Shown here: positions 3,072 through 27,656 of the stretch, one piece after another | How the letters are laid out: every line of letters begins with the position of its first letter | Numbering within the stretch: the first letter of the stretch is position 1 | Assembly (NCBI GenBank): GCA_902570265.1 | Contig: CACFXF010000007.1 | Location: forward strand, 1 to 64,000 | DNA from: an uncultured Alphaproteobacteria bacterium | Lineage (GTDB): Bacteria; Pseudomonadota; Alphaproteobacteria; Rhodobacterales; Rhodobacteraceae | Direction: 5' to 3' | Length of the DNA stretch: 64,000 nucleotides | Made by a program: the position numbers and the translations under genes | Notes under the pieces: model-generated | The model's database searches: none | The model's input: only the letters and a program-made list of their open reading frames with translations | Told to the model about the DNA's origin: nothing

Positions 3072-3110
3072 TTTAGAAAAAAAATAATTTTTTTTATTTT
3101 TTTTTCTAAA
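3072..3110. terminator. A/T-only hairpin, possible terminator
   Basis: Shortly after the stop of the reductase gene there is an inverted repeat made almost only of A and T: the left arm begins TTTAG plus eight A and the right arm has nine T then CTAAA. Further T-runs follow. It may end the upstream operon. A stem of only A-T pairs is weak, so this is tentative. Confidence 0.3.
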
Positions 3111-3157
3111 CTTTTTTAAAAATCAGTCGTTAGGGATATAAAATTTAAAATATGCTA

Positions 3158-3173
3158 TATGGTTGGAACCATA
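3158..3173. promoter_or_regulatory. Short palindrome upstream of the giant gene
   Basis: The sequence TATGGTTGGAACCATA is a palindrome with 7-bp arms, placed 23 bases before the start codon of the 1774-residue protein gene. It could be an operator or a 5' leader hairpin. No partner regulator is visible nearby, so the role is unknown. Confidence 0.25.
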
Positions 3174-3195
3174 CCATTGGCATAGGGGTACATAA

Positions 3196-6100
3196 ATGAC
3201 TAGAATTTCATCTGTTTCCATGGTTATGGAAACTTATTATAAATTAACTCAGACACCATCTGAAATGGAAGAGGAGTTAAAAAAAGAATTAGCCAATCAA
3301 AATAAGCAGCAAAGTGGTGATACATCCACCTTAGATGATCTCACTGAAGTGGTGGGTACTATTAAGGATGAAATTCAATTTTTAAATAAGGCAAAAAACA
3401 CATTTAATGAAATATATAAAATTATCGATGAAGCTCACAATTATTTAAAAAACTTAAATCATGAAGCTATAACTGGACTTAGTCAGACTAATTTAAAAAA
3501 TAAACTAGATGGTTATATTTCATCAATAAGATTAGCAGTATCAAATGATGGTGGTACTAATTTCTCTGATGAGCTTATAAAATATATAGATAAACTTACA
3601 GAAGTTAATATTGATGATATTTGGAAAACTTTGAGTTCTCATGAAGTTCAGGCAAAATCAAGCATCGTTGGTGGTCTGGACTCTAATGTTTCAACTAATC
3701 AGATTATAAGTGGTAAACAGATTAACATTGAAGGTGCACAAACTTCATTAAATCTAAGCCAAACTAGTAATCAAAGTGCTAATATTCTAGCTTCTTCAAT
3801 AAACGGATTATCAACTCTAGGTGTTTATGCAAAAGCAAAAAATAATGTTTCATTTTCAAATTTAAGCTCAACCGGAACTTATTCTTTTAAAATTACCAAT
3901 ACAAAAACTGGTGGATCAGGTCATTCTCTATCTGGAATAACTATTACTGATGTCAATAATTTAACACCATTTTATGACGCTGTTAATAATAGCGCTGGTT
4001 CTACTGGAGTAACAGCTAAAATAAATGCAGATCTATCAGTAGTAACATTAGTCGATGCTAAAGGTGACAATATAAATCTATCTAATTTTACAACAACAAG
4101 TGGAAATCCTACTTTAAATATATTTTCTGAGTATAATCGTAGTTCTAGAGATGCCAGTTTGGCAAGCATAAACGTACATTTCAAAGAAGACTCAAATATT
4201 GGAGATGACGGTGAGTTGAGAGGAGGTTATGTTGAATTTTTTACATATGACAAATTAAATAATGAAAGTATTTCTATTGACACAAGCACAGCAGTTAAAG
4301 TCGATTTAAACGAAGTTTCAATAGTTGATGATCAAATATATGTGGGCTTGGGAGAATCAAATTCAACTCAAATAGGATATATTGATTCAACTTTCAATGG
4401 ACAAAATGGTCAACGACTTCGTTTTAAATTTTATGATGAGGATCCTAGTGGCTCTCAAACTATATTTATTAACGAAACTATTCTACAGAATTTGTCAAAT
4501 CTAGTAACCTTCAATCATGTTAATATGGATATAACTAATTATCCAGATGATCTTGATAAAGATCCTAGAATAGAGACAGTAACTGCAGATATTAATGCAG
4601 CTATTTTTAGTACAGGAGTTGCTGAAAATCCAGTTACTTCTACCTCTAATGCTATAGCAACTGCGAACTACGGACTTACAGGCACCCATGATGTTACGGT
4701 TACAGGAACTTTTCAATATGTAGGTAATACTAGTGATGTCTCTAGAACTGTAACAATTGAGGCTAACGCAAGTGCAAAGTTATTAGCAGAACAACTCAAT
4801 ACAATTGCAACTCCTACAAATACCACTTTTGCAGCTGGTAATAAATTAGTCATATCGCATGCAGAGGCTTTAGGAGATATATCCTTTAAATTAGGTAGTC
4901 ACAATAAAACTTCTGGAATTATCGGGACAGCAGATATCTCCTCAAATATAACAGAAACTGGTCAACAAATTCGTATTCAAAGATTTGGAGCTTTAGGAAA
5001 TACTAGATCTTTCACAATTACAGGAACAGGGTCTGATGGAGGTTCTTTAACTGAAACAATAGCTAATGTAGCAGCAAATTCTACAGCTACTGGTTCTAGT
5101 TATTTTTCAACTGTTCATAGTATTGTGACAGATGGAGCTCTAGGTGGGGATGGAATTTTTAATATAGGAACCTCAACAGATAATGACGAAATAATAAGTG
5201 CACCTGGAGGTGGGGGATACAGTGAGCCCACCTTAACTAGTTTTAAAATCAATGGTTCTGCAGCTTCTGATAAAAATATAGCCAGACTTACTTACCATGA
5301 CGGTAATGCAGAAAGAAATCTAACTAATTTAAAAAATGCTATTAATGCTCAAAGTGGGACAACGGGGATAACAGCTGAAGATTTTATAACAAATGAAGAA
5401 CTTTTATTGAGTCATTCTACCGGTGAGAATATTGTAATAAGTGAACTAAGTGGAGTTGGAATAAAAGTTCAGCCTCTCCAAATAGGAGCTTCGTCTGAAA
5501 ATGGTGGGTTAAGGGATAATGTTCGAAGAACATTAGATGCCTCTAGAAATTTAGACTTCATCACTGACAAAAGATTTGTAGCGATTACTCCTACAAGTTC
5601 AGGTTCAATTACTGCTGATTATACCATCACGGGAACAAATTTTTCCGGCAGCACAATTTCTGAAACAATTTCTGGAATTAATCCAAGTGGTGGCACCCAA
5701 TATTCTAAACAATCCTTTTCTACAGTTTCTCAAATCACTACTTCAAATGTAACTTCTGATGTAACACTCGTAGGACATGTAGATACAGATGGTAGTAGTA
5801 ATTTGGTAGCTAATTCTATTATAGCTGATGATGCAAGTAATACCGCTAGGCCATTAGAAAATGATGGAACAACTAAAAGTGAAATATCCTTAAATGGAAG
5901 TAGTGTATCGGGTACTGCAGACTTGCTAAGTGCTACAGACGGACAATTTGTGACAGTAACAGCTGATGCAGGATCACCAGTTCTTACAGTAAGAATAAAT
6001 GGAAGAAATTATTTAGGAGATGCACTTGAAAGAGATATCGAAATTGTACCAGGTTCAACTGTAACAATAAATTCAAATGGTGACTCAGACAGGTTTGCAA

Positions 6101-8520
6101 CCGTTCATCGAATGAGAACTTTGGGCTCTATGATTGGAGAAAGAATAAATATACAAAATGCTGGATCTAGACAAACTCAGTTCACAATTTCAGGAACGCT
6201 TCATGATGGTGATTCAGATACTGAAGTTGTAACAGTTTCTGCAGGTGGAACTACTTCAGGATCAAAATATTTTAAAACTGTTACAGATATAAAAGCTAAT
6301 CTTAATCCTAATGGAAATGTTATAATTGGTACAGTAAGAGATCAAGATGCAGTATTCACTTCACAGTCCCCCAACTCATCAGAAAGAGTAAATATACAAA
6401 ATGCTGGAACACAAAATACTATTTTTACAGTTAATGGGACATTAGAAAACGGATCATCTGATACTGAAACAATATCTGTTTCAGCAGGTGCAACACAAAA
6501 TGGAACTACTAATTTTAAAACTATTACAAGTATTTCTGCAAATGTTAATCCAGATGGTGCGATAACTATTGGAACTTCTTCAGATCCAGATGGTATAATT
6601 GATACTGTAACTCCAGGAAGTTCAGGTGCTATTTCTTTAAATGGTGCATATGTAACTTCCGGTGTTGCAGTTTTAGGAACAAACTTTTCATTAACTCTTG
6701 ATGGAGCTGATGTTTCGTCAGGGACAGCAACACTTGCAGAAGGTAATATTCAAGTTGGAGTTGTAGGAAATAATAATGGTTTAGCCCAAAGCCAAAAACC
6801 TAGCCATGATAGTAATGATAGAATCGACCTTACTGAAAATGGAACAATCTCTAGCAGTGGTGGAGCTTTTGCTCTAACGGATGGAAAATTAGTATCTATT
6901 AATGTCCCTACTGACGGTATAAAAGGTAGTTATCGTGTTAAAGGAATGGATAAATATGGGAGAAATAATCAAGAAGAAGTAATCAATGCTAATTCTCATG
7001 GTTCTGCAATCAACGGTTCAACAGGTTTTTTAAGGATTTCTAATGTTTACGTGAATAGTTTAGATCCATCTGATATCAAAGTAGGAACAGCCAGAGATAA
7101 TGCTGATAGTGGTACTGCCAATACTATTTTTGATGATGATGCAATTACTACAGCAAATGGTTATCAAGCAGCAGGAAACCTAAATATCAATGGTTCTGCT
7201 ACTTCGGGAGGTACTGCTATTTTAAATGATTCTAATTTGTCTTACACTATTACTGGAACTAACTCAGAAGGCACTAACATTAGTGAAACTATATCTGGTT
7301 CTGCCACTTCTCCTAGTGTTAAATCTTCTAAACAGTATGCTACGGTAACACAAATATCTGTCGCTAGCTCTCCATCCACATCAGCGGCTGGAAATGTAAG
7401 AATAGGAACCAATACTAGCACAAATAATGTTGCTTCGACTCAAGCTCCAACTCCTGGGGCAAATCTTTCTCTTGCAGGAAGTGCAGGTTCTTTAAGTACT
7501 AATGACTCAGTTTTGATAATTGGATCAGTACAAGGAACTTCTAGGCAAAAACTTTCTTTTTCTGCAACTGACGATCACTATTTTGATAGAGTAAGTTATA
7601 GATCCGACACATTAGATAATAGTACTATTACAACTCCAATCCCTAATTTGACTTCTCCTGGCCTGAAAATAACTACAAATAGCAACCATGAAGTTATCAC
7701 TACTGGAGAAATCTTTGTTCACTCAAACAAACCTTTTACTATCACGCAACAGGATGCAGCTGACGAAAATAAAGCAGTACAAATCTTTGCTGATGCTGGA
7801 AATAACAATGTGGCATTTACCATTAAAGGAAGAGACGATTTAGGTAATTTGATTGAAGAAAGCATCACAAGTTCAGCTGGAAACAGTGTATCAAGCACAA
7901 CCAAATTTGCAACTGTATATCAAATAACAGCTGCTGGGGATCCTGGTGGAAATATAAAGGTAGGTACATCAATAGATGACGACTCAATAGCTACTTCCCA
8001 AAGTCTTAATATGGCTGTTTCAAGCCATCTAGTAATAAACGGAGTAAGAGAAAGTACTGAAAAAGCACTTGTAGGTGGATTTAATTATGATCAAGCTGTT
8101 TTGAGAAATGATGGGAGTACATTTTTTTCTTTAGACAATAATGAAAATGAAGTGAATCTTTATGATTTCAGTCTTTCCCAAACTGTAGCTGGACAAGAAT
8201 TCACCCAGCGTTACGCTCATGCATTAACTGATGTGACAGATGCAATCACTACAATAGATGCTGCCCTATTGAGAGAAACACAGGTTAATAGTGCCGGAGA
8301 GGATTTAACAGCAAAGAAAGCTCAGTCAGGTTTTACAAAAGAAGAGTTTATAGAAATGGGGTTAAAAACTGCAGATCGAATTAAAAATTTAACTTCAAAA
8401 ACATTACTTATTAAAAACATTTACTCACAACGTCACAACCTAAGCATGCTAATGAGTGGGCAACTATTTGGATTTGGTATGCTTAATTTCAAAGGTGATT
8501 TTAACTTATCAAAAAAATAA
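3196..8520 (+). CDS. Giant flagellin-like repeat protein (1774 residues)
   Basis: The first 160 or so residues and the last 100 or so are predicted helical and charged, while the 1500 residues between are rich in Ser, Thr, Asn and Gly with beta-strand patterning. This helical-ends, variable-beta-middle layout is that of flagellins. Segments near residues 255-297 and 704-749 (for example LTNLKNAINAQSG then TGITA) resemble the Flagellin_IN motif. At least eight diverged copies of a module of about 60 residues occur, starting near 606, 809, 930, 996, 1077, 1246, 1350 and 1541. The consensus is FTITG, then ET-I-, then YF-TV--I, and finally IGT--D-D. There is almost no Cys and no classical signal peptide. 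No flagellar or type I secretion genes are nearby. The module also recalls phage structural proteins. Surface filament or adhesin is the best guess. Confidence 0.6.
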   Translation: MTRISSVSMVMETYYKLTQTPSEMEEELKKELANQNKQQSGDTSTLDDLTEVVGTIKDEIQFLNKAKNTFNEIYKIIDEAHNYLKNLNHEAITGLSQTNLKNKLDGYISSIRLAVSNDGGTNFSDELIKYIDKLTEVNIDDIWKTLSSHEVQAKSSIVGGLDSNVSTNQIISGKQINIEGAQTSLNLSQTSNQSANILASSINGLSTLGVYAKAKNNVSFSNLSSTGTYSFKITNTKTGGSGHSLSGITITDVNNLTPFYDAVNNSAGSTGVTAKINADLSVVTLVDAKGDNINLSNFTTTSGNPTLNIFSEYNRSSRDASLASINVHFKEDSNIGDDGELRGGYVEFFTYDKLNNESISIDTSTAVKVDLNEVSIVDDQIYVGLGESNSTQIGYIDSTFNGQNGQRLRFKFYDEDPSGSQTIFINETILQNLSNLVTFNHVNMDITNYPDDLDKDPRIETVTADINAAIFSTGVAENPVTSTSNAIATANYGLTGTHDVTVTGTFQYVGNTSDVSRTVTIEANASAKLLAEQLNTIATPTNTTFAAGNKLVISHAEALGDISFKLGSHNKTSGIIGTADISSNITETGQQIRIQRFGALGNTRSFTITGTGSDGGSLTETIANVAANSTATGSSYFSTVHSIVTDGALGGDGIFNIGTSTDNDEIISAPGGGGYSEPTLTSFKINGSAASDKNIARLTYHDGNAERNLTNLKNAINAQSGTTGITAEDFITNEELLLSHSTGENIVISELSGVGIKVQPLQIGASSENGGLRDNVRRTLDASRNLDFITDKRFVAITPTSSGSITADYTITGTNFSGSTISETISGINPSGGTQYSKQSFSTVSQITTSNVTSDVTLVGHVDTDGSSNLVANSIIADDASNTARPLENDGTTKSEISLNGSSVSGTADLLSATDGQFVTVTADAGSPVLTVRINGRNYLGDALERDIEIVPGSTVTINSNGDSDRFATVHRMRTLGSMIGERINIQNAGSRQTQFTISGTLHDGDSDTEVVTVSAGGTTSGSKYFKTVTDIKANLNPNGNVIIGTVRDQDAVFTSQSPNSSERVNIQNAGTQNTIFTVNGTLENGSSDTETISVSAGATQNGTTNFKTITSISANVNPDGAITIGTSSDPDGIIDTVTPGSSGAISLNGAYVTSGVAVLGTNFSLTLDGADVSSGTATLAEGNIQVGVVGNNNGLAQSQKPSHDSNDRIDLTENGTISSSGGAFALTDGKLVSINVPTDGIKGSYRVKGMDKYGRNNQEEVINANSHGSAINGSTGFLRISNVYVNSLDPSDIKVGTARDNADSGTANTIFDDDAITTANGYQAAGNLNINGSATSGGTAILNDSNLSYTITGTNSEGTNISETISGSATSPSVKSSKQYATVTQISVASSPSTSAAGNVRIGTNTSTNNVASTQAPTPGANLSLAGSAGSLSTNDSVLIIGSVQGTSRQKLSFSATDDHYFDRVSYRSDTLDNSTITTPIPNLTSPGLKITTNSNHEVITTGEIFVHSNKPFTITQQDAADENKAVQIFADAGNNNVAFTIKGRDDLGNLIEESITSSAGNSVSSTTKFATVYQITAAGDPGGNIKVGTSIDDDSIATSQSLNMAVSSHLVINGVRESTEKALVGGFNYDQAVLRNDGSTFFSLDNNENEVNLYDFSLSQTVAGQEFTQRYAHALTDVTDAITTIDAALLRETQVNSAGEDLTAKKAQSGFTKEEFIEMGLKTADRIKNLTSKTLLIKNIYSQRHNLSMLMSGQLFGFGMLNFKGDFNLSKK

Positions 8521-10152: not shown

Positions 10153-10273
10153 AGTTATACATACAAAAAAAATTAAACATTGTGAAATTTTAATTCATAC
10201 TTTTTAAAATTAATTCACTAAAAAAATGAAGGTTTTTGTCGTTTTGAACATTTATATTACTTAGTTTATTTGC

Positions 10274-11992
10274 ATGCTTGATTATTTAACTGATAAAAAT
10301 AAAAACATTGGTTACGATTTCAACAAAAATCGTTCTCTTAAATGTGTTTATCATTCAAAAAATGTTGATGATAAAAAAGAAAATTTACTACAAATAAAAA
10401 ACATAATTATACAAGAAAATTTATCTAAAAATAAAAAGGACCTTGAAAATTTAGTAGCTTATTTCAATAAAAAATTAAAATTGAAAAAAGACGATGTCGA
10501 ATTAACCATTGGACTAGGGAATGCTCTTGAAGAGCTACAAGAGGAAAGACTTTTAAAGAAGCTTTTTTTGTCTTTTGATAAAAATATAACCGGTTCTGAA
10601 GTTATAAAAAAAAGATTGGCAGAAATATTTTATAGAGAAGAAAATTTTAAAAAAGCAGTAGAAAATTATGAATTTTATCTAAATAGTAAGAGAAATAAAT
10701 ACAATAAAGATCTTTATATTAAAATAATTGATTGTTATTACAATTTAAAAAAGTATGAGAAATGCTCTGATTATGTACTTATGTGCCTAAAAAATTCTTC
10801 TGAATTTTCTACAGAAGTATTACTGCTATTCGGCAATGTTTTTTTGAAGTCGAAAAAATATAAACGGGCCATTGAACAGTTTTTAAATGGTATCCAAACT
10901 ATAGTTGAATATTTGAAAAAAATTGAAAATCTTTCTTATGCTTCAGAAAATAATAATAAAATAAATAAAGAGAAATTTTTGGAAGCTGCAAAATATTCTT
11001 CACCTCAGCGTTTGCTTCCTAAATTTTTAAATAATATTGGAAATGCATATAATAAAATTGGTTACTACAGGGAAGCCCAAAAATATCTTATTAAAGCTTT
11101 ATCATTAGAAAAAAATCCTTATACGCTAAATAATTTGTCCTTATCACTTAAAGCTCAAGGTAAAAAAAATGATGCTCTCAATCACTTGCTTAATGCGCTT
11201 CAAATTGAAACAAAATCAGCTGAAATTAATTTTAATTTGGCAGAAATTTATTTATCAATGAATGATATTAATAAATCACAAAAGTTTTTAAATGAAACTA
11301 TTAAATTAGACCCAAATCATGAAGGAGCAAAATTAAAAAGTGAAATTTTAAATGGTAATTTCAAAGGCAAATTTCCATTAAAGTATTTGAAACACCATTT
11401 TGACAATTATTCAGAGACATTTGAAAAGCATCTACTAAGTACTCTTAATTACAAAGTACCATTAGCTTTTTCAAAAATAATGAAGTCTAAATATGAAAAA
11501 AAATATTCATTAAAAAATATACTTGATTTAGGTTGTGGAACTGGTCTTTGTGGAATTCAAATCAAAAATAATTTTAATAAACTCGTGGGTGTGGATATCT
11601 CAAAACAAATGCTAAACAAAGCTAATCAAAAGTCAATTTATACACAGTTAATATGTACTGATATCATTAATTTTTTAAAATATACTAAACAAAAGTATGA
11701 GATAATTATTGCAGCGGATGTATTGATTTATTTAGGCGACCTTAATGAACTTTTTAAATTTGTTCACAATGTTATGCTTTGTAATGCAAGATTTATATTT
11801 TCAATTGAGGAAACAAAAAAAGGTGAATATATGATTAATCAAAATGGAAGATTTTCACATACCCTTTCTTATATAACTAAAATCTCTCAAAAAAATAATT
11901 TAATGATTGAAACATACCAAGACCTTAAAATTAGAAAAGAAAACAACAAATGGATTTATGGGAAAATTTTTACTGTTATGAAAAATCAGTAA
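10274..11992 (+). CDS. TPR-repeat protein fused to a SAM-dependent methyltransferase
   Basis: The 572-residue protein has two parts. Residues about 60-360 contain tetratricopeptide-like helical pairs (for example NNIGNAYNKIGYYREAQKYL around residue 255-275, and a later LNNLSLSLKAQGKKNDAL copy), a scaffold for protein binding. From about residue 415 follows a class I methyltransferase with the SAM motif ILDLGCGTG and the acidic GVDIS that binds the ribose. TPR-methyltransferases of this layout occur widely in marine Alphaproteobacteria, but their targets are unknown. It is lysine- and asparagine-rich, like its AT-rich surroundings. It has no signal peptide and is probably cytosolic. Confidence 0.75.
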   Translation: MLDYLTDKNKNIGYDFNKNRSLKCVYHSKNVDDKKENLLQIKNIIIQENLSKNKKDLENLVAYFNKKLKLKKDDVELTIGLGNALEELQEERLLKKLFLSFDKNITGSEVIKKRLAEIFYREENFKKAVENYEFYLNSKRNKYNKDLYIKIIDCYYNLKKYEKCSDYVLMCLKNSSEFSTEVLLLFGNVFLKSKKYKRAIEQFLNGIQTIVEYLKKIENLSYASENNNKINKEKFLEAAKYSSPQRLLPKFLNNIGNAYNKIGYYREAQKYLIKALSLEKNPYTLNNLSLSLKAQGKKNDALNHLLNALQIETKSAEINFNLAEIYLSMNDINKSQKFLNETIKLDPNHEGAKLKSEILNGNFKGKFPLKYLKHHFDNYSETFEKHLLSTLNYKVPLAFSKIMKSKYEKKYSLKNILDLGCGTGLCGIQIKNNFNKLVGVDISKQMLNKANQKSIYTQLICTDIINFLKYTKQKYEIIIAADVLIYLGDLNELFKFVHNVMLCNARFIFSIEETKKGEYMINQNGRFSHTLSYITKISQKNNLMIETYQDLKIRKENNKWIYGKIFTVMKNQ

Positions 11993-24179: not shown

Positions 24180-24821
24180 ATGATGAAACAAGAAATTAGA
24201 AAAATAGAAATTCTGATTTTGGCAGCTGGTCAATCTACAAGAATGATAGGAATTAATAAATTATTAAAAAACTTTAATGGTAAAACACTTGTAGAGAAAG
24301 TAGTATGTCAATCTTTGAAAAGTAAAGCATCGAATGTTTCAATAATTATTCAGGAAAAAGATTTAGAAATTGAAAATGTATTAAGTTTACTTCCTGTTAA
24401 AATATTAAAAACTAGCTTTGAAAATATTGGAATTGGATATTCTATATCAAAAGGAATGAAGTTATTAAAAAAGAATGACCCTGAAGGAGTTTTAATATTA
24501 TTAGGAGATATGCCGGATATAACTACTAAACATATTAATCGAATGATTGATGAGTTTATTAATAATTCTTTACAAAAAATTATAAGAGCTTGTTCACAAA
24601 ATTTGATACCTGGAAACCCAGTACTTTTTCCAAAAAGTTTTTTTGATTTACTATTAAAATTAAATGGAGACAACGGAGCAAGGAAAATTCTTAATAATTA
24701 TAATCATATGATAAAGCACATTATACTTCCTAAAATGACTGCATTAACAGATATAGATACTCAAGAACAATATGATGAATGGAAAAAAAGGAATTCTTTA
24801 TCCAAAAAGAATTTTAAATGA
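24180..24821 (+). CDS. MobA-like molybdenum-cofactor nucleotidyltransferase (MocA type)
   Basis: The 213-residue protein has the nucleotidyltransferase start LILAAGQSTRM (about residues 10-20) with the following Lys in INKLL, and the metal-binding VLILLGDMPDI near residue 105. These features mark MobA/MocA enzymes that add CMP or GMP to molybdopterin. Its place right after XdhC points to MocA-type cytidylyl transfer for a xanthine- or CO-dehydrogenase-like enzyme. The last 8 bases overlap the convergent methyltransferase gene. Cytosolic. Confidence 0.82.
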   Translation: MMKQEIRKIEILILAAGQSTRMIGINKLLKNFNGKTLVEKVVCQSLKSKASNVSIIIQEKDLEIENVLSLLPVKILKTSFENIGIGYSISKGMKLLKKNDPEGVLILLGDMPDITTKHINRMIDEFINNSLQKIIRACSQNLIPGNPVLFPKSFFDLLLKLNGDNGARKILNNYNHMIKHIILPKMTALTDIDTQEQYDEWKKRNSLSKKNFK

Positions 24822-26061
24822 TAGATAAACTCGGAATAGCAACTACAAATTTACATCCCCATTTCTTCGTAAATTTAAGTTGATCTATTATTTCATCTTT
24901 TATATTCCATGGGAAAATAACTATAAAATCTGGTTTTTCTTCTCTAATTTTTTTTTCATCTAAGATAGGAATTTTACTACCTGGACAATATAACCCTTGT
25001 TTCATAGGATTTTTATCCACAATAAATTGCAATAATGCTTTTGAAATATTACAAAAATTTAGTAGTGTGTTACCTTTTGCTGCTGCACCATAACCAGCAA
25101 TAAGTTTACCATTATTTTTTTGTTCAATAAGAAAGTTTTTAAATTCATCTCTTATACTTTCAGCGACTTTTTGAAAATTCCTATAAAAATCTAAATTGGT
25201 TAAACCAGCATCTCTTTCTTCTTTCAGAAGTGCATTTACTCTCTTAGAAATAAATCTTTTTCCAGTATCAGATTTCTGTGCATAATATCTTAAACTGCCT
25301 CCATGTACTGGTATTTTTTCTACGTCAAAGATAGTCAGTCCATTGTTTTTAAAAATTTCATTGACTGATGTTAGAGATAGATAAGAGAAATGCTCATGAT
25401 ATATAGTATCAAATTGTTTTCCATTAGCCAGTTCAAGTAAATGAGGATTCTCAAAAGTAGCTACACCTTCTGGATTGAGGATTTCATAAAAACCTTTTAC
25501 AAAATCGTTAATATTTGGAACATGTGCTAAAACATTATTAGCAATTGCCAGATCTACAGTATTTCTTTCATTGGCTATTTTTTTTGCCAAATTAGTGGAG
25601 AAAAAATCACCAATAATCTCTAAACCTTTAGATCGAGCAACATCAGCTGTACTTTTGGTAGGCTCGACACCTAAGCATTTTATATTCAATTTTTTTACAA
25701 AATTTAACAAATAACCATCATTAGAGGCGACTTCTAAAACACTGCTATTTTCATCAAGAGAAAATTTAGAAACCATCTTATCAACATATTCTTTAGTATG
25801 ATTTAAAAAAGATGAAGAATATGAACTAAAATATGCGTATTCATGTGTAAACATTTCTGAAGCATTTACAAAGTCTTCAGTTTGTACCAACCAACATGTA
25901 TCACAAACCATAACCCTTAATGGAAAGGCCTTTTCAGGAAGATTTAGATTTTCTTTTTTAATAAATGAATTCGAAGGAGCAGACACTCCTAAATCTAAAA
26001 ATTCATATTTCAACTTATTATTACAATGTCTACACTTCATGGAATACTTTTTTTCTTTCAC
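24814..26061 (-). CDS. Deoxy-sugar C-methyltransferase (TylCIII-like, zinc-binding N-terminus)
   Basis: The 415-residue enzyme shows the three-part plan of NDP-hexose C-methyltransferases. The N-terminal zinc module has CRHC and a later CDTC. A SAM-binding core is present (SSVLEVASNDGYLLNF, about residues 101-116). The C-terminal domain has GYGAAAKGNTLLNF, typical of the family. It adds a methyl group to a nucleotide-bound keto-sugar, giving a branched sugar. Translation may start at GTG 26061 or at ATG 26040, whose product starts MKCRHC; the latter looks more natural. It is the third gene of a minus-strand sugar cassette with overlapping ends. Confidence 0.85.
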   Translation of the reverse strand: MKEKKYSMKCRHCNNKLKYEFLDLGVSAPSNSFIKKENLNLPEKAFPLRVMVCDTCWLVQTEDFVNASEMFTHEYAYFSSYSSSFLNHTKEYVDKMVSKFSLDENSSVLEVASNDGYLLNFVKKLNIKCLGVEPTKSTADVARSKGLEIIGDFFSTNLAKKIANERNTVDLAIANNVLAHVPNINDFVKGFYEILNPEGVATFENPHLLELANGKQFDTIYHEHFSYLSLTSVNEIFKNNGLTIFDVEKIPVHGGSLRYYAQKSDTGKRFISKRVNALLKEERDAGLTNLDFYRNFQKVAESIRDEFKNFLIEQKNNGKLIAGYGAAAKGNTLLNFCNISKALLQFIVDKNPMKQGLYCPGSKIPILDEKKIREEKPDFIVIFPWNIKDEIIDQLKFTKKWGCKFVVAIPSLSII

Positions 26062-26587
26062 ATTTAAAAATTTCTAAGTTTTTATCCTTTTCAGATATTT
26101 GTGTTACTTCTATGGGCCAAGGGATTTTTAGGTCACTACTATTATAATGGTACCCCTTTTCTAATTCTTTATTATGATAATCAGTGTGAAGATATAACAT
26201 TTCACAATCTGGTAATAAAGTTTGAAATCCATGAGCAAAACCAGAAGGAACAAAAATCATATTCATTTTTTTTGAGTCTAAAATAAGAGAGTATGATTTA
26301 CCAAATGTCTTAGATTCTTCTCTTAGATCAACTATGACATCAAAAATCTTACCTTTTATACATCTAATAAATTTATTTTCTTGGCTTGGTGATGATTGAA
26401 AATGCAAGCCTCTAACTGTCCCAGCCATCCTTGAATATGAAGAATTAATTTGTACAATTTTAGTATCATTGAATAATTTTGATAAAGATTTTTGGCAAAA
26501 AAATCTAACAAAAGATCCTCTTTTATCTTTTTTAGGAATGCATTCTATTTCTACAGCACCCTCTAAAGGAGTCTTTTTAAGTAACAT
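26030..26587 (-). CDS. rfbC: dTDP-4-dehydrorhamnose 3,5-epimerase family protein
   Basis: The 185-residue cupin-type epimerase has the family's hallmark region GTVRGLHFQ (about residues 55-63; His is the catalytic base). This is followed by KFIRCIKGKIFDVIVDLR and the late GFAHGFQTL. RfbC normally inverts C3 and C5 of 4-keto-6-deoxyglucose nucleotides; next to a CDP-glucose dehydratase it may act on the CDP sugar instead. It overlaps both neighbours, 11 bases with the dehydratase and 11-32 with the methyltransferase, so the three are co-translated. The product feeds lipopolysaccharide or another surface glycan. Confidence 0.88.
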   Translation of the reverse strand: MLLKKTPLEGAVEIECIPKKDKRGSFVRFFCQKSLSKLFNDTKIVQINSSYSRMAGTVRGLHFQSSPSQENKFIRCIKGKIFDVIVDLREESKTFGKSYSLILDSKKMNMIFVPSGFAHGFQTLLPDCEMLYLHTDYHNKELEKGYHYNSSDLKIPWPIEVTQISEKDKNLEIFKCERKKVFHEV

Positions 26588-27656
26588 CTAGTGCCCAACT
26601 TAATTTATTTTTTTGTGCATCTTGAATAAAGTTTTCAATTTGATCGTCAGTTTTTACTATTTTTTTCTCATAGTAATTTTTATACCAATCAATTGTATTA
26701 TTTACTGTTAGATCAATTCCCCAAACTGGATTCCACTTTAATTTATTATATGCCTTAGAACTATCTAACATAAGATATTTAGATTCATAGATTTTTGGTT
26801 TTTCAAATTCAACTTCAATGTCATTCCATCTTTTTTTTACAATATTGACTAATTCTCTTACTGTTATATTCGAATTATATGATGGACCAAAGTTCCAAGG
26901 CTCTGCAAATTCTTTTCGATTTTGAAATAATAACTGTCCCAATAGTAAGTAGCCTGATAAAGGTTCCAAAACATGTTGCCATGGCCTTATACTTTCTGGA
27001 TTCCTTAAAATTAATTTTTCCTTTTCTGATGCTGCTATGGCAATATCTTTAAAAATCCTATTTGAGGTCCAGTCACCTCCTCCCAAAACATTTCCAGCTC
27101 TAGCTGACGCTATTAGTAATCCAGTATTATCTTCTTTAAAAAAAGAATTTTTGTAACTTTCAGTAACAAGTTCTGTACATGCTTTTGATGCACTGTAGGG
27201 ATCATAACCTCCTAATTCATCAGTTTCCCTATATCCATAAATACACTCTTTATTTTTATAACACTTATCAGTAGTTATTATGATGACCGCTTTTACAGAG
27301 TCTATATATCTAGCAGTTTCAAGTATATTAGCTGTACCTATAACATTAGTAGTGAAGGTTTCTAAAGGTTCTTTATAACTTTCAATTACTAAAGGTTGAG
27401 CAGCTAAATGAAAAATGATCTCTGGCTCAATTTTAGTAATGAAATCTCTGACAGAATTGAGGTCCTGTATATTATTTATATGAGAATTTACTTTAGGATT
27501 TGATAAGTCAAAGTGATTTGGTTCAGTACTTGGATTAAGTGAGTAACCAAAAACTTCTGCACCTAAATGGTTCAACCATTTACACAGCCAGCTTCCTTTG
27601 AAGCCTGTGTGACCAGTTACCAAGACACGTTTATTTCTATAAACTCCACCGAACAA
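26577..27656 (-). CDS. rfbG: CDP-glucose 4,6-dehydratase
   Basis: The 359-residue extended SDR enzyme starts with VLVTGHTGFKGSWLCKWL (NAD-binding, about residues 10-27), the version typical of CDP-glucose dehydratases. It also carries the catalytic YSASK (about residue 151) preceded by GYRETDELGGYDP. It makes CDP-4-keto-6-deoxyglucose, the entry to CDP-linked deoxy sugars. It leads the cassette with an epimerase and a C-methyltransferase. The usual partner glucose-1-phosphate cytidylyltransferase (rfbF), commonly just upstream, is missing here. The upstream neighbour is instead a divergent truncated gene close to a rearrangement. Confidence 0.9.
   Translation of the reverse strand: MFGGVYRNKRVLVTGHTGFKGSWLCKWLNHLGAEVFGYSLNPSTEPNHFDLSNPKVNSHINNIQDLNSVRDFITKIEPEIIFHLAAQPLVIESYKEPLETFTTNVIGTANILETARYIDSVKAVIIITTDKCYKNKECIYGYRETDELGGYDPYSASKACTELVTESYKNSFFKEDNTGLLIASARAGNVLGGGDWTSNRIFKDIAIAASEKEKLILRNPESIRPWQHVLEPLSGYLLLGQLLFQNRKEFAEPWNFGPSYNSNITVRELVNIVKKRWNDIEVEFEKPKIYESKYLMLDSSKAYNKLKWNPVWGIDLTVNNTIDWYKNYYEKKIVKTDDQIENFIQDAQKNKLSWALDVT

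Follow-up and report, generated by a model that had tools for sequence, protein, structure and literature searches.

The stretch of DNA analysed here (the window, 64,000 nucleotides long) belongs to an incomplete alphaproteobacterial assembly of 2.16 Mb in 87 contigs, which is 81% complete. On the forward strand, positions 3196..8520 hold an open reading frame that starts with ATG, contains no internal stops and encodes a giant flagellin-like protein of 1,774 aa, a length that bears out the unusual size claimed in an earlier note on this DNA. Orthologues of the giant were found in seven of the 12 genomes of the genus that were searched and were seen in this genus only; an eighth match, in genome G202, was left out of the count, being an adhesin with the module described below alone in common. 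The gene was not found in the other five of the 12 genomes, every one of which is incomplete. The six complete orthologues have 1,722-1,821 aa, and the closest public relative is the isolate AG-404-G18, with a giant that is 90% identical. The gene stands alone, outside the flagellar cluster, and its flanks are metabolic genes of conserved order, given that all six loci examined show the arrangement ApbA-type reductase, giant, proline racemase. Across the orthologues, the identity profile is highest at both ends of the protein and lowest in the middle. Searches with the whole 1,774-aa protein gave nothing above chance in Pfam, PHROGs and NCBIfam, and sequence searches of the PDB gave no credible match to either the complete protein or the module. 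The Pfam matches to PI3K_P85_iSH2 and UfSP_MPN_N were below the cut-off and were taken as chance.

Upstream of the gene, at positions 3107..3131 of the forward strand, lies a sigma-28 (FliA)-type promoter, TAAA-N15-GTCGTT, which is conserved in all seven orthologues, where the motif TAAA-N15-GTCGTW is placed 62-66 nt before the ATG. The same motif occurs in five genomes upstream of flgM, the classical FliA-regulated anti-sigma gene. The a priori chance of the motif is about 1.6e-4 per given 100-nt upstream region, and the 2.16-Mb assembly holds seven exact matches versus 51 for the reversed pattern; two of the seven fall in the window, one preceding the giant and one preceding a gene for a tetratricopeptide (TPR) methyltransferase, and two are on the contig that carries flagellar genes. 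The E. coli sigma-28 consensus TAAAGTTT-n11-GCCGATAA, which equals TAAA-N15-GCCGATAA, has the same spacing as the site in the window (PMC2859248). On the strength of these sequences, the giant very likely belongs to the flagellar late (FliA) regulon. The promoters of the flagellins FliC1 and FliC2 were seen by eye to have sigma-54-type -24/-12 elements, those of FliC2 being recovered also by pattern, and for this reason a sigma-28 promoter is not a signature of flagellins in this genus. A division of flagellins between sigma-54 and sigma-28 is known in other bacteria, where FliD can also be sigma-28 dependent (PMC8306008).

The leader of the giant contains a conserved stem-loop (3154..3181, forward strand), directly before the AGGGG ribosome-binding site, for which RNAalifold gives nine pairs, one with a compensatory change, a weak support. 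This stem-loop adjoins an invariant AGGGGTACA ribosome-binding region, and some of the loops carry GGA, like CsrA sites. A sigma-28-type site also precedes a small unknown open reading frame beside fliL, both in this genome (L123, G000:C8:68971, 99 aa) and in that of a relative (L130, G090:C7:73260, 79 aa).

Two tandem Flagellin_IN-type repeats (aa 168-306, positions 3697..4113, forward strand) were located by BLASTP and HHalign. This region is 35% identical to that of true flagellins, with a BLASTP E-value of about 2e-16 for a search space fixed at 1e7, and HHalign gives it a probability of 98.9 and a score of 114 versus 17 for the best shuffle. The equivalent region of FliC2 of the same genus shows about 36% identity with the giant's, and starts after about 195 N-terminal residues versus about 165 in the giant. 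Several pairwise alignments are collinear from the IN region into the helical N-terminus, for example giant 58-322 versus flagellin 55-333. At the level of sequence, these comparisons establish homology between aa ~168-306 of the giant and the tandem Flagellin_IN repeats that true flagellins carry, and the Flagellin_IN-like motif pointed out in the earlier note reflects real homology. An IN-type motif is present in the FlgK of this genus too, and FliD generally carries such motifs as well.

The first 100 aa are the most conserved part of the giant, with 61-69% identity to the more distant orthologues, and for the last 74 residues this identity is 61-66%. The N-terminal helical region (aa 1-160, positions 3196..3675, forward strand) is a candidate D0/D1 given its conservation, a weak similarity to the N-terminus of FliC1 and low-confidence helices, and the C-terminal two-helix region (aa 1663-1774, positions 8182..8517, forward strand) is a candidate CD1/CD0 given its conservation and low-pLDDT helices. 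AlphaFold2 was run separately on aa 1-690 and on aa 1225-1774, with one close homologue as alignment, and predicted helices at aa 6-38, 45-85, 97-116, 125-134 and 139-148 of the N end and at aa ~1663-1699 and 1715-1760 of the C end. Since the mean pLDDT of these models is about 33, the helical ends that had been proposed for the protein are retained as predicted helices at both ends, in models too poor to be other than suggestive.

Pfam returned no match of the giant to Flagellin_N (PF00669) at E<=1, the sole match to this domain in the genome being FliC2, and neither Pfam nor profile comparison revealed similarity to Flagellin_C (PF00700); the classical flagellin segment LSSG-RI-DDAAG is also absent. 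Given that both domains were tested and not detected, the giant is not filed as a flagellin. In HHalign the N end scored 21.5 with flagellins versus 22.9 for the best shuffle, and a further profile-profile comparison of the ends with flagellins gave probabilities of at most 1.3%, although the N-termini of FliC1 and FliC2 match each other at 99.6%. With composition- and block-preserving shuffles, the N-terminal 160 residues reach Z 4-6 in four of six orthologues, a score obtained against FliC1 only. A rotation control, which is demanding when the alignment of a signal is local, was not passed, and the claim of N-terminal similarity was downgraded because of this. In a ranking with about 1,040 decoy segments the ends come fairly high, but with an E-value of only 0.5-5 for the N end. 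The ends are thus suggestive candidates for flagellin D0/D1 helices.

Between the IN region and the C end, a module HMM locates eight modules of about 63 residues on the forward strand: module 1 (aa 603-668, 5002..5199), module 2 (aa 806-869, 5611..5802), module 3 (aa 929-991, 5980..6168), which is the most diverged, module 4 (aa 993-1055, 6172..6360), module 5 (aa 1074-1136, 6415..6603), module 6 (aa 1243-1307, 6922..7116), module 7 (aa 1347-1414, 7234..7437) and module 8 (aa 1538-1600, 7807..7995). With an HMM made from the orthologues of other species alone, their i-E values range from 7e-21 to 7e-5, and 120 shuffled giants, searched with the full model, gave no value better than 0.008. The intact reading frame, together with this HMM, confirms the earlier description of at least eight diverged modules and a beta-rich centre. 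Pairwise identity between the modules of the giant is 16-51%, the highest value being that of modules 4 and 5, a pair that seems to have arisen by tandem duplication fairly recently. The orthologues carry 5-8 copies each, which means that module copy number changes.

The profile of the eight modules also matches frames of 2,729-5,490 aa in the sister genomes G198, G202, G203, G204 and G205. In G202, the giant adhesin examined (a 5,353-aa frame) has by eye an RTX-type C-terminus, and RTX-type calcium-binding repeats are typical of type I secretion. The region G202:C2:80000-112000 (L051, L052) holds adhesin-like giants with frames of 5,353, 3,807 and 1,431 aa, and the module is common to all of them. 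A class-wide survey of 385 genomes found the module in just two further lineages: in one it is part of a 640-aa protein that from its sequence resembles a BNR-repeat sialidase, and in the other it is carried by a 233-aa gene that lies in a prophage-like region, directly 3' of a gene resembling one for a capsid protein (G304:C5, L147 / L163). With this prophage protein as query, 50 IMG/VR loci were retrieved, 49 of which are recognised by a module model made from the giants only (best E 9e-15); the best viral matches are proteins of about 140-620 aa with one module each, or two in one case. Module searches of GenBank phages and PHROGs gave nothing strong, and tblastn against phages and plasmids gave no match. 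Because RTX-type adhesins, proteins of phages and a sialidase-like protein all contain it, the module is, judged by sequence, a beta domain that can be exchanged among surface and virion proteins. The earlier note would have counted a module confined to a known adhesin family, along with ends that do not model as D0/D1 helices, against the flagellin idea; the module is not so confined.

Among the window ORFs that were scanned, a subset of the total, no annotated flagellar structural gene was found, in line with the remark that none is near, and two window genes have sigma-28-type promoters. Flagellar genes that the earlier note had proposed to seek elsewhere in the genome are present there. 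FliA matches NCBIfam TIGR02479 with 217 bits versus a cut-off of 190, FliL, FlgF and an FlhG-type ATPase are encoded as well, and there is a separate FliD (a 563-aa frame), a FliS match that is below the curated cut-off, and the flagellin FliC2 (G000:C62; 1,113 aa, Flagellin_N 99.7 bits). This gene content shows that the genome encodes a flagellum. FlhA, FlgL and FliC1 were not found in the assembly. The flagellar contig C8 stops no more than about 10 bases past flhG, and that of a sister genome stops inside flhA; loss of the flagellum was rejected and the missing genes look like assembly gaps, because the contigs end there. A full cluster, with FlhA, FlgM, FlgB-K, FlgL and FliC1, is present in G090, a near-complete relative. 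Its hook protein FlgE has 1,244 aa (L047:8253-11987) and its FlgK 1,687 aa (L056:706-5769), frame lengths that recur nearly identically across the genus. With flagellins of about 1,110 aa, the whole hook-filament axis is enlarged in this genus. Near the flagellar cluster of G090 (C7, L046:1280-6056) lie genes that by eye resemble those of coenzyme F420 / FO biosynthesis.

From the features of its sequence, the giant resembles a surface or adhesive protein borne on the flagellum, and it is probably made and exported as part of that organelle. Cysteine is absent from all 10,689 residues of the six orthologues, which also lack RTX nonapeptides (GGxGxD) and a hydrophobic N-terminal signal; no autotransporter or anchor domain was found in the giant. 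This lack of secretion signals is consistent with flagellar export. The reading that has slightly the better of the odds is that the giant is a late-class flagellar protein, an accessory and very large flagellin-like subunit; the chances that it is incorporated in the filament appear evenly balanced.

It is somewhat unlikely that the giant is exported by the flagellum without polymerising, as a secreted or hook- or cap-associated adhesin with a borrowed IN domain. A late-class promoter combined with IN homology and unproven D0/D1 ends would suit such a protein, as would a module common to adhesins and the IN-type motif in FlgK, but conservation peaks at both ends, the pattern that subunits polymerising by their termini should show, and the low-confidence models suggest a flagellin-like helix layout. 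A surface adhesin unconnected with the flagellum, with an IN domain acquired by fusion and a coincidental promoter, is improbable: its modules are common to the giant RTX-type adhesins of sister species and the gene stands alone amid metabolic genes, but no signal peptide, RTX repeats, autotransporter or anchor domain was found, and the promoter is kept in all seven orthologues with the same motif at flgM. The domesticated viral fibre raised in the earlier note fits the presence of the module next to the capsid-like gene and in 49 of the 50 IMG/VR loci retrieved. As a reading of the whole protein it is nonetheless highly improbable, because the viral module proteins are short, among the best matches, and mostly have a single module, and the ends and IN region are non-viral in the searches, matching no PHROG above chance; the whole giant is likewise without viral match, and its flanks are metabolic and conserved in synteny. 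What stands of the earlier interpretation is the relation to flagellins through the IN region, the size and the likeness to phage structural proteins, the last for the module alone. A replacement of the filament cap (FliD) or of the hook-filament junction (FlgL) is scarcely credible and was rejected, because, for all that FliD generally has IN-type motifs and can depend on sigma-28, the genus has both as separate genes (FliD and FliS in this genome, a 425-aa FlgL in relatives), FliD_N and FliD_C were tested and not detected in the giant, and HHalign of the giant with both proteins gave nil.

For an accessory flagellin-like subunit, the following sequence of events can be proposed. FliA would turn the gene on once the hook-basal body is finished and FlgM has been exported, and the unfolded, cysteine-free chain would exit via the flagellar export channel, a route suggested because no other secretion signal is visible. 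In the manner of flagellin ends, the helical N and C ends would next anchor the protein in or on the filament, or at its base or tip, so that roughly 1,450 residues, mostly beta domains (the modules and the IN region), would project outwards and form a bulky sheath or an adhesive bristle. FliC1 and FliC2, which are sigma-54-promoted, would build the bulk of the filament and the giant would be a later, minor subunit, in which a change of module copy number could tune reach or binding. If this is right, expression of the 1,774-aa protein should depend on FliA and its export should be flagellar, a sharp prediction, and flagellum, adhesion and phage module exchange would be linked, since a late-flagellar protein appears to draw on a module pool common to phage virion-type proteins and giant adhesins. 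That the giant represents a new class of filament protein that has lost or replaced the classical D0/D1 signature, with a late giant decorating the flagellum of the genus, is unlikely; if true, a giant subunit with phage- and adhesin-type modules would act as an adhesive bristle or as a phage-facing surface mimic.

Giant flagellins are already known, and one was demonstrated to build thick filaments; like the window protein they are very large and marine, with a repeat-bearing centre between conserved ends (PMC6248924). They differ in having recognisable D0/D1 (pf00669) and DE/DX inserts that match flagellins only, whereas the window protein exceeds 1,000 aa without detectable D0/D1, its repeats match phage and adhesin proteins, and its gene comes in addition to those of ordinary flagellins. 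FliC2 of the same genus resembles the giant in having an IN-type region at nearly the same place and a large insert, but has a clear Flagellin_N, a sigma-54-type promoter and no such modules found. Flagellinolysins carry a metallopeptidase in the flagellin hypervariable region (PMC5595980) and thus share with the giant a foreign functional domain within a flagellin-type centre; they assemble as flagellins into active filaments, and their cargo is an enzyme and not an array of beta modules. The RTX adhesins of the G202 type share multiple copies of the ~60-residue module, but the one examined has, by eye, the RTX-type calcium-binding C-terminal repeats that the window protein lacks. The IMG/VR and G304 prophage proteins share the module plus the preceding stretch GI-x-QxP...LTI-GA--SGGVATLDVPR, but are shorter, mostly with one module, and have neither helical ends nor an IN region; the prophage gene also differs in its setting beside a capsid-like gene.

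The second sigma-28-type promoter of the window, a motif match at 10219..10243 of the forward strand, precedes a gene for a 572-aa protein with TPR and class-I methyltransferase domains (10274..11992, forward strand; Pfam TPR, Methyltransf_25/12). G090, G201 and G207 have this site too (four species in all), and G090 has a second such gene, a paralogue, with the same promoter (L116). Co-regulation of the TPR-methyltransferase with the giant is probable. FlmG of Caulobacter binds flagellins through its TPR domain (PMC7591256), and by analogy it is possible that the TPR-methyltransferase modifies flagellar proteins (flagellins). Further along the window, positions 24180-27656 hold nucleotide-sugar genes for an NTP transferase, an epimerase/dehydratase and a C-methyltransferase. 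They make up a route to a branched deoxysugar, which might be used in glycans of the surface or the flagellum.
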